A DNA stretch of 62,206 nucleotides, taken from contig JAQYVT010000009.1 of assembly GCA_030145345.1 (NCBI GenBank), positions 1 through 62,206 of the forward strand, in the 5' to 3' direction. The number at the start of each line of letters is the position of its first letter. Positions within the stretch are counted from its first letter, which is position 1. Shown here piece by piece: positions 59,090 through 62,206 of this stretch. Source of the stretch: Desulfobacterales bacterium (GTDB lineage: Bacteria > Desulfobacterota > Desulfobacteria > Desulfobacterales > UBA11574). A program made the position numbers and the translations under genes. The notes beneath the pieces are model-generated. The model was not told where the DNA came from and searched no databases. It saw nothing but the letters and a program-made list of their open reading frames with translations.

Positions 59090-60775
59090 TCAGGCAACCT
59101 TATTGACTCTTTTGAAGGCCTGATACATCCAGTACCCTCCAGAAATATTTTTTGCCTTGTAGCCGTGATGTTGCAGTATTCGGGTCGCATAATAGGATCG
59201 TTCGCCCTCGATACAATAGACCCATATTTCCCGTTCTTTTGGGAGTTCCGGAAATCGTTCTCGAAGCAGTTTGTTTAGAAAAATGTTCACCGCTCCATTT
59301 ACGTGACCCTGGGCAAATGCGTCCGGATGACGCACATCCAGGATAACGGCATCGGATTTTTCCAGGTTCTCCCAATGAACCACTGAGAAATATCCCTTAA
59401 ACACGTTACCGGCGGCCATACCCGCCAGGTTGATCGGATCCTTGGGGGTGCTGTACTGAGGAGAGTAACACAGTTCTGCTTCTTCTAAATCGAATATCGT
59501 CCCGTTTTTCTGAATGAGCGTTGAAATCACATCGATTCGTTTTTCGACCCCGCTTTGGCCAACCGCCTGGGCACCGAGAATTCGCCCGTCTTGGGTCGAA
59601 AAAACAAGCTTGATATGAATCGGGGCCGTTTCAGGGTAGTAAAGGGGGTGTGACGGCGGGTGGAGATAAATTTTTTCGTAATCTGAAAATTCGTTTTCAG
59701 GGCCCAATTTGCGGATAAATTTTTCGGTTGCTCCGGTCATTGCAACCGTAAGCCCCAGCACGCCACAGACCGCCGTCGCCTGCGCGCCCCTGAACTCCGG
59801 GGACGACGGGCCACGGCCCAAAATGGCCTCGGCCGCAATGCGGCCCTGTTTATTGGCCAAACCGGCCAGGGGAACCAAACGCTGAACCCCGAAAATGAAG
59901 TCTTTTACCTGGACCGCATCTCCCACGGCCCAGATATGCACATCGCTGGTCCGCATATGATCATCAACGAGAATTCCACCCAACTCACCGATGTCAAGCC
60001 CTGCTTTTTGAGCCAGCGCGACCTCCGGCCGCACGCCCATGGATAGGACAACCAAATCTGCGGACACCGATGTACCGGATTTTGTATTTACGGATATCTT
60101 GTCTTTCGGCAACGGTTCAAAACCACATACCCGGCTTCCAAGATAAAGTGTGATGCCTTGCGCTTCGAGATGTTCCTGAACAAATGCGGCCATTTCAGGA
60201 TCGAGTACCGGCATCAGGTGTTCTTCCATCTCGATAATGGTGACCTGAGCGCCAAGTTTTTTGAGATTTTCGGCCATCTCCAGCCCGATATATCCGCCGC
60301 CCACAATGGCAACGTTTTCGAGAAATCTTTTTTTAACCCACTCGATAATCCTGCGCATATCCGGGATATCCCGGAGGGTAAAAATACCGGGAAGGTTTAT
60401 TCCCTTGAGATTCGGCAGTATCGGTTTGGAACCGGTTGAGAGAACAAGAGCCTCATATGGCTGTCGGTAGGTCTGGCCGGTACTTGTATTTTCGACCTCA
60501 ATTTCCCTGCGGCCGCGATCAATGGACCGAACAAGGCTATTGACGCGAACGTCGATATTAAATAGGTCCTTGAATAATTCCGGCGTGGCCAAAATGAGGT
60601 CATCCTCATGGCCGACCACTTCGCCGATGCGATAGGGAAGACCACAGTTCGCAAATGAAATATAGGGCCCGCGATCGAATACGATAATCTCGGTATCTTC
60701 AGACAATCTTCTCGCCCGGGTTGCGCAGGCCGCACCTCCGGCAACACCTCCGACGATTACCAGCCGTTTTTTCAT
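59090..60775 (-). CDS. CoA-disulfide reductase with C-terminal rhodanese domain
   Basis: FAD- and NAD(P)H-dependent pyridine-nucleotide disulfide oxidoreductase of 561 aa. The N-terminal FAD motif is VIVGGVAGGAACATRAR. The single catalytic cysteine is Cys44 (SFANCGLPYRIGE), as in CoA-disulfide reductases and Npsr-type polysulfide reductases. A second nucleotide site VAIVGGGYIGLEMAENL and a dimerisation domain follow. A rhodanese domain ends the protein, with Cys521 in VYCIEGERSY. The fusion is known for CoA persulfide/polysulfide reductases of sulfur metabolism. It lies 66 nt after the selenoprotein gene. Confidence 0.9.
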   Translation of the reverse strand: MKKRLVIVGGVAGGAACATRARRLSEDTEIIVFDRGPYISFANCGLPYRIGEVVGHEDDLILATPELFKDLFNIDVRVNSLVRSIDRGRREIEVENTSTGQTYRQPYEALVLSTGSKPILPNLKGINLPGIFTLRDIPDMRRIIEWVKKRFLENVAIVGGGYIGLEMAENLKKLGAQVTIIEMEEHLMPVLDPEMAAFVQEHLEAQGITLYLGSRVCGFEPLPKDKISVNTKSGTSVSADLVVLSMGVRPEVALAQKAGLDIGELGGILVDDHMRTSDVHIWAVGDAVQVKDFIFGVQRLVPLAGLANKQGRIAAEAILGRGPSSPEFRGAQATAVCGVLGLTVAMTGATEKFIRKLGPENEFSDYEKIYLHPPSHPLYYPETAPIHIKLVFSTQDGRILGAQAVGQSGVEKRIDVISTLIQKNGTIFDLEEAELCYSPQYSTPKDPINLAGMAAGNVFKGYFSVVHWENLEKSDAVILDVRHPDAFAQGHVNGAVNIFLNKLLRERFPELPKEREIWVYCIEGERSYYATRILQHHGYKAKNISGGYWMYQAFKRVNKVA

Positions 60776-60841
60776 CCTTCTCTCTTAAAATTTAAAATAT
60801 CCATAAGTTTAAAATCTCTGTCCGCAAGATGAACTGCAGAC

Positions 60842-62065
60842 CTAAATCTGCAGACACTCAAGAACCAGTTCCCATAAATATTTGACGTCAAGATCCTCCA
60901 TACCGTAGGTTTTTTTAATATCATTAACCTGGCCGTGACAGGCATGACAGAGCGTCACAAACATTTGTGCACCGGCGGCCCGGATCTGTTCCATCTTTTT
61001 CCTGCCGTAGAAGGTTCGTTCCCGATCATACGGGGTCGTAAGGGTTCCGCCGCCGCCGCCGCAGCAGGTCTGATACTTTTTGTTGGGATAAAGTTCCACC
61101 CAGTTTTCCAGACACCGGTCCATGATCCAGCGGGGTTCGTCATAAAAGCCGCGCCCGAATTCCATTTCGGATTTTCGGCCAAAGTTGCACGGATCATGAT
61201 AGGTTGCCAGCCCTTGGAACCTCGATTTTTCGGGTTTGATTCTTTCTTCCTTGATGTATTTCACCAGAAGTTCGGGGACGCTAATGGTGCCGAATGTCCT
61301 TAAAGATTCAGGGTACCATTTTCTAAGACCAGACCTGGTCATGAGATAAGCATGACCTCATTCCGGCCAAAGCAGATTTTTTATCTTCAAATTTTTCATA
61401 TGATCCACGATGCGCCCGACCAGAATCTTTGCGGCCGGGTCATCCCCGTTAAAGTACCCCCAGTTGGACCCTTCCGGGTTTTCCGATGTGATGGTCCAGT
61501 CCTCGTTCGCAAGATATAAAACTTTCCACAAATGCTTCATATCTTGAGGAAATCTTAAAACCAGTTTGTTATGTACCGTTAACAGAAGGTTTGCCCCTTC
61601 TTTATCGATCGGCACGGTAAACCCTTCAAATCCCGGTTCCGCGGCAATCTCATCGGCGATGGCCTGCATGCGGGAAACGAATTCCTGACTGGACAGTGCA
61701 TTGACGTTGCCGGTTTTAAGGGCTCTGACCAGTCCGGTGTGAAGATCTCCGGGGATCTTTTCCCGATCCCAGAGGGTCCTTATGCTTCTGACAATATCTG
61801 AGATATTGATCTGCATGGGACAATAAACGACGCACTTGCTGCACATGGTGCACAACCACAGCCAGCGGGCTTCGACCAGTTCTTCGATTCGGCCGAGTTC
61901 AACCATGCGTAGGACCTTGCGCGGGTCGAACCCGTCGATGCCGGATGCCGGGCACAAACTGGAACAAAGTCCGCAGGCAAGACAGTCATCCGGTGAATGT
62001 GGCCAGGCTGCAAACCGCAACCGGTCCGACCGCCCCGGGTCTATGATTTTGGATGATTTGTTCAT
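60842..62065 (-). CDS. DsrK/HdrD-like iron-sulfur protein with in-frame UGA, probable selenoprotein
   Basis: Two frames, 62065-61358 and 61342-60842, are in the same register and separated only by a TGA (61360-61358). Read through as selenocysteine, they give one 407-aa protein. The N-terminus has two [4Fe-4S] motifs (CLACGLCSSLCP and CTMCSKCVVYCP). The C-terminus has a cysteine-rich CCG domain (YHDPCNFGR, TCCGGGGG, LCHACH). The TGA falls in WPE-U-GHAY, exactly where DsrK/HdrD proteins have Cys in ECGHA, a residue that helps bind the catalytic cluster. A SECIS-like hairpin follows. These proteins reduce disulfides or pass electrons between thiols and quinol/ferredoxin. Ribosome site AAAGG. 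Confidence 0.85.
61320..61360 (-). promoter_or_regulatory. Bacterial SECIS-like element after the UGA
   Basis: On the mRNA, 17 nt after the UGA, GACC-AGGUCU-GGUC (61340-61327) folds into a stem with the loop AGGUCU, the same apical loop sequence as in the Escherichia coli fdhF SECIS, where it also follows the UGA by about 17 nt. An alternative stem GGUCAUG/CAUGACC lies closer to the UGA. The rest of the lower stem is weak. Confidence 0.65.
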
Positions 62066-62074
62066 AAGGTACCT

Positions 62075-62206
62075 TTAAAAATCGGACTTGAGCCTGCTCG
62101 GCCCAAGCGCATAAAGGGTTTTTTCGAAGCCGGTTGAAAAATCGGCAAATTCTTTTCCCATATTCGAAGCAATCGTATCGATCTTAAGCCGTTCTTTTTC
62201 AAAACC
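62075..62206 (-). CDS. C-terminal end of an unknown protein (cut by window edge)
   Basis: On the minus strand the frame is open from the edge to TAA at 62075, giving 43 residues that end with YALGPSRLKSDF. It ends 9 nt before the selenoprotein ATG, so the two are one transcript. Too little remains to name it; given the neighbour, another subunit of a heterodisulfide reductase-like complex is possible. Confidence 0.55.
   Translation of the reverse strand, partial: GFEKERLKIDTIASNMGKEFADFSTGFEKTLYALGPSRLKSDF

Follow-up and report, generated by a model that had tools for sequence, protein, structure and literature searches.

Introduction

Near one end of a Desulfobacterales contig, the reading frame of an iron–sulfur oxidoreductase gene is interrupted by a UGA codon. 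Does this codon terminate translation or is it read as selenocysteine (Sec), and what would Sec do at that place in the protein? The window analyzed is the entire contig of 62 206 bases. An earlier note on this DNA proposed a new selenoprotein candidate of a DsrK/HdrD-like kind, with Sec at the site of a noncubane cluster. Selenoproteins with the motif UGH have been published as the Fe–S oxidoreductase-like or GlpC family (PTHR43551; PMC13188914; PMC1794560; PMC1914089), and a UGH/GlpC gene was described in a glpC–hdrA–frhD–frhG–frhA operon (Zhang & Gladyshev, 2006; PMC1794560). A Sec-containing HdrD4 of Desulfobacterium autotrophicum HRM2 was reported in 2009 (PMC2702500). Cluster ligands are available for EtfD of Mycobacterium smegmatis (9ojn), in which the linear D1 cluster has four ligands, among them Cys581, and the noncubane D2 cluster is completed by His583 (PMC13083937). 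In this study, the decoding of the UGA, the identity of the protein and the surroundings of the Sec site were analyzed computationally.

The gene and its read-through product

Two open reading frames share one register on the minus strand, at 61358–62065 (235 amino acids) and 60842–61342 (166 amino acids from the first Met). The TGA at 61357–61355 is the only interruption of the frame from 62065 to 60842. Read-through translation joins both pieces at PE-U-GHAY, which bears out the proposal that the adjacent frames are in register, and gives a 407-residue product with U at position 236 in the context ...NLLWPE-U-GHAYLM.... Open-reading-frame calling with table 11 indeed yields two pieces, as had been predicted of standard annotation. 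Along the protein, two 4Fe–4S motifs are followed by a Cys-free region, the PE-U-GHAY motif and a complete CCG motif. The features are as follows.

60842–60844, minus strand: stop codon (TAG) of the Sec gene
60845–62065, minus strand: complete coding sequence of a Sec-containing HdrD-like (HdrCB-fusion) Fe–S oxidoreductase, 407 amino acids
60935–61189, minus strand: canonical noncubane CCG motif, all Cys (C293, C334–C335, C373, C376)
61324–61337, minus strand: apical SECIS stem-loop GACCA-GGUC-UGGUC, 5 bp with a 4 nt loop, with synonymous covariation
61355–61357, minus strand: in-frame TGA read as Sec, residue 236, motif PE-U-GHAY
61817–61984, minus strand: two ferredoxin-type 4Fe–4S motifs in the HdrC-like part (C28, C31, C34, C38 and C72, C75, C78, C82)
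62078–62206, minus strand: 3' end of the upstream gene, which runs off the contig and encodes the C-terminal part of an HdrA(C-half)–FlpD/MvhD fusion

The UGA column and the Sec machinery

Among 80 independently fetched named loci, the UGA column holds TGA in 75, Cys in three (TGC, TGC and TGT), Ser in one (TCG) and Leu in one (TTA). Overall, UGA was found at the same column in 128 distinct homologous sequences. Homologues of at least 41% identity (whole-genome searches, 146 relatives) nearly all contain exactly one internal stop, always TGA and in the same column. The Cys-bearing relatives read PECGHAY or TECGHA at this position, in agreement with the earlier statement that the UGA replaces the Cys of an ECGHA motif, and the Cys ligands downstream of the UGA are invariant across the alignments. 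The Ser and Leu orthologues are loci L154 and L173, all other loci having Sec or Cys; the change to Leu in L173 looks recent or erroneous because the 5 bp SECIS stem is still kept. Given the three Cys, one Ser and one Leu among the 80 loci, Sec is perhaps not strictly essential; assembly errors are possible.

The source genome encodes selA (530 bits), selB (384 bits, exceeding the cut-off), tRNA-Sec (selC; 75.4 bits, cut-off 47) and selD, whose own gene has an in-frame TGA. The first three are the genes for which a search had been suggested, absence of selB or selC being the outcome that would have spoken against Sec. Two further UGA-containing relatives of the window gene are encoded in this genome, a 60% identical copy and a 34% identical one, both on contig C37.

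The SECIS hairpin

The apical stem-loop begins 20 nt after the first base of the UGA. The sequence AGGUCU, which consists of the loop and the closing pair, starts 25 nt past the T of the codon and is closed by GACC/GGUC. This is the layout of bacterial selenoprotein genes, with a SECIS hairpin just 3' of the UGA and a G in the apical loop. The earlier note had placed such a hairpin at the right distance, and it is real in that the stem is kept by synonymous covariation.

Covariation was analyzed in 128 distinct 63 nt stretches (35 after redundancy removal), in which the hairpin is kept in two registers, with a loop of 4 or 5. Synonymous codons co-vary so that the apical stem is preserved, as AGG-TCT-GGT, CGG-TCG-GGT or CGG-TCC-GGG. 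Arg AGG is accompanied by Ser TCT in 22 of 25 cases and CGG by TCT in one of 39 (Fisher p = 6e-13, uncorrected for relatedness). Synonymous codons were then shuffled within column and amino acid, a permutation that preserves every protein and every column. The mean apical stem of the 128 sequences is 4.73 bp, compared with 2.39 ± 0.14 bp after permutation; the corresponding values for the 35 non-redundant sequences are 4.43 and 2.46 bp, with none of 5000 permutations as good as the observation. No other anchor in the 63 nt stretch rises above 2.4 bp. Paired synonymous changes of this kind point with unusual clarity to a SECIS element under selection. A Leu-type clade (L134, L141, L177 and others; 21 of the 128 sequences) has the loop AGGCUU, in which the usual GU lacks its U.

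When the 56–60 nt from the UGA are folded in isolation, a 7 bp GGUCAUG/CAUGACC hairpin wins, and the SECIS stem is not the minimum-energy structure (z = −0.15 versus shuffles). With the first ∼11 nt omitted, which would lie under a ribosome at the UGA, the SECIS stem dominates (P = 0.94–0.997). The fold of the UGA-proximal 56 nt alone thus gives no support to the SECIS element, and the question is settled by omission of the ribosome-covered bases together with the covariation. The competing hairpin is created at 61334–61354 (minus strand), where the window has ATG and nearly all relatives have GCG, GCA or TCG. An Rfam scan of 60000–62206 gave no match to a bacterial SECIS model, only two sub-threshold chance matches.

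Identity of the protein and its family

In structural comparison, the AlphaFold model of the read-through protein (pLDDT 89) gives Z = 27.3 with EtfD (over 372 residues) and Z = 20–21 with HdrB. The protein is a soluble fusion of the HdrC and HdrB types and hence HdrD-like, a part of the earlier description that holds; the DsrK part does not. DsrK, TmcB and HmcF resemble it in their HdrD-like order of domains and in having an ECGHA-type motif, and are its best NCBIfam matches, at 123–159 bits. However, all of these scores are far under the cut-offs, and membership was rejected for DsrK (123 bits against 400 for NF045796), TmcB (149 against 735) and HmcF (159 against 750). The E. coli-type GlpC was likewise rejected, at 30 bits against a TIGR03379 cut-off of 279.9, and the published label 'GlpC' is loose on account of this score. 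A separate DsrK without a UGA is encoded elsewhere in the source genome (733 bits). Another DsrK-like match in the same genome (L180; G000:C22:142029–143276) has one TAG inside the aligned range, perhaps before the true start. A literature search pairing selenocysteine with DsrK found no paper.

The in-frame UGA lies in the U-G-H of an HdrD/GlpC-type protein that is homologous to a hydrogenase-operon member, L155 of Desulfogranum marinum (46% identity over about 386 residues). The window gene is a member of the UGH selenoprotein family, known since about 2006, and does not found a new one. The proposal of a new selenoprotein candidate is thus upheld by the Sec genes, the SECIS covariation and the UGA column as far as 'selenoprotein' is concerned, and falls on 'new', the family having already been published. 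The PEUGHAY motif, the bacterial SECIS, 44–48% identity and occurrence in Deltaproteobacteria are shared with the operon form. In L155, HdrA, FlpD and both hydrogenase subunits, small then large, are encoded after the UGH protein, and four of these five genes contain UGAs. The window gene, in contrast to the glpC–hdrA–frhD–frhG–frhA form, lies in a separate supported clade, with a split HdrA and an HdrA/FlpD fusion and no hydrogenase genes; the hydrogenase operon is a reported context of the family and not part of its definition. HdrD4, compared by its description, is also a soluble HdrC+HdrB-type fusion reported with Sec (PMC2702500); among named loci the nearest is L132 (Desulforapulum autotrophicum), at 52% identity and in a sister clade. 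A second UGH subfamily with NTE-U-GHV, about 37% identical (L058:7323–8504, L091, L092 and L094), has both Sec and Cys members, and the UGH gene of L058 adjoins hdrA, flpD, metV-like and metF-like genes.

Genomic context

Because the window is a whole contig, the operon is truncated just upstream of the Sec gene. What remains of the upstream fusion, its last 43 residues, ends 12 nt before the Sec gene and is 62.5% identical to the tail in L053. In the tree, the window gene falls in a 26-row clade (support 100/99) inside a 38-row clade apart from the hydrogenase-operon form. The upstream genes of the window clade are the HdrA N-half (the FAD/Fe–S half) and then the HdrA C-half fused to FlpD, this fusion gene being present upstream in most members. 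A literature search for the split-HdrA arrangement with a UGH selenoprotein found no description, which does not prove absence. A single-protein query against genome contigs gave no match, the corresponding alignment query found homologous loci, and no homologue was found in viral contigs. The window copy has a branch of 0.51, the longest of its subclade, versus 0.06 for the C37 copy.

About 60 nt downstream of the Sec gene, 59090–60775 (minus strand) encodes a flavoprotein that resembles CoA-disulfide reductase and has a rhodanese domain at its C-terminus. Its family has Sec (UGxP) members elsewhere, and this copy has Cys (NCGLP). In L114, a gene 32% identical to this flavoprotein sits downstream of the UGH gene.

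The selenocysteine site

The protein resembles EtfD and HdrB/HdrC in its fold, two 4Fe–4S motifs, one noncubane CCG motif and a conserved His, and differs from EtfD in having no membrane part and none of the D1 ligands except Sec at the Cys581 position. The site was aligned to EtfD by HMMER profile alignment and in three MAFFT modes. All four alignments place U236 on Cys581, His238 on His583 and Ala239 on Cys584, and C293, C334, C335, C373 and C376 on the D2 cysteines C637, C672, C673, C709 and C712. The MAFFT alignments place W190/T191 on C538/T539. The other D1 ligands lack a Cys counterpart, C538 being opposite Trp, C584 opposite Ala and C503 opposite a gap. Contrary to the earlier claim, Sec takes none of the five Cys positions of the noncubane cluster, all five Cys of that CCG motif being ordinary and present. 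The more general phrase 'cluster-ligand position' is correct by ancestry, through Cys581 of the D1 cluster, and incorrect for the noncubane CCG motif. In the alignments, Sec pairs with a ligand from the degenerate CCG half; the remaining D1 ligands are lost, and the His completing the noncubane cluster has been kept.

Discussion

UGA is a stop in table 11, and the long branch and competing hairpin of the window copy would suit an ordinary stop, a sequencing error or a pseudogene with a product of 235 amino acids. This is highly improbable. A chance UGA is excluded because 128 homologues share the column and the stem covaries synonymously; invariant downstream Cys ligands and the full Sec machinery also argue against it. 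At the level of sequence, these results show UGA236 to be decoded as Sec by way of a bacterial SECIS that covaries, the genome having the full Sec machinery. The same branch length, together with the GCG-to-ATG change behind the competing hairpin, could instead mean that the family is functional and the window copy decaying, with the 60% identical C37 copy doing the work, but all ligands, the His and the 5 bp SECIS stem are intact and decay is considered improbable. A role in a membrane complex of sulfate respiration, as its DsrK, TmcB or HmcF subunit, is scarcely credible for this protein. Although these families give the top matches, the shortfall from cut-offs of 400–750 bits, the separate DsrK of the genome and neighbours of the HdrA/FlpD kind, with no Dsr, Tmc or Hmc genes, stand against it.

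A more serious alternative concerns the state of Sec236, which might directly ligate Fe, in the noncubane cluster or in a reduced cluster in the D1 site, leaving no free redox-active selenol. In favor of this, it aligns with Cys581, which does ligate the linear D1 cluster. However, C503, C538 and C584 have no Cys counterpart here, the noncubane cluster is already supplied with five Cys and a His, and Ser and Leu variants occur at the Sec column; direct ligation is thus possible and rather unlikely. The likeliest state of Sec236 would be a selenol next to the single noncubane cluster. As an overall explanation, a UGH (HdrD-type) selenoprotein of the known family, acting as an HdrBC-like subunit with a selenol beside one noncubane cluster, is considered probable, with room for doubt.

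In this explanation, the protein would be the HdrBC-like, thiol/disulfide-handling subunit of a soluble HdrA–FlpD complex and would take electrons from FlpD/HdrA. Sec236 would stand where the lost first CCG cluster (D1 in EtfD) had a ligand, and His238, like His583 of EtfD, would cap the noncubane cluster that is left. With both residues so placed, the selenol would face one noncubane cluster, compared with the two facing clusters of HdrB, and together they may cleave a disulfide between Se and Fe. A bolder version can be put forward only tentatively: in the window clade a single Sec might replace the entire D1 Fe–S cluster, the selenol, at one of the D1 ligand positions and by the His-capped noncubane cluster, carrying out the second half of disulfide cleavage in an electron-bifurcating HdrA–FlpD complex.

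The Hdr-type proteins of an entire clade in Desulfobacterales are each split into two pieces by standard gene calling. The present analysis adds to the published work on these proteins the clade with its operon, the covariation of the SECIS and a model of the site. The uncharacterised UGH family thereby gains a testable site model, in which Sec would take a ligand position left by a lost cluster, next to a noncubane cluster that has been kept.
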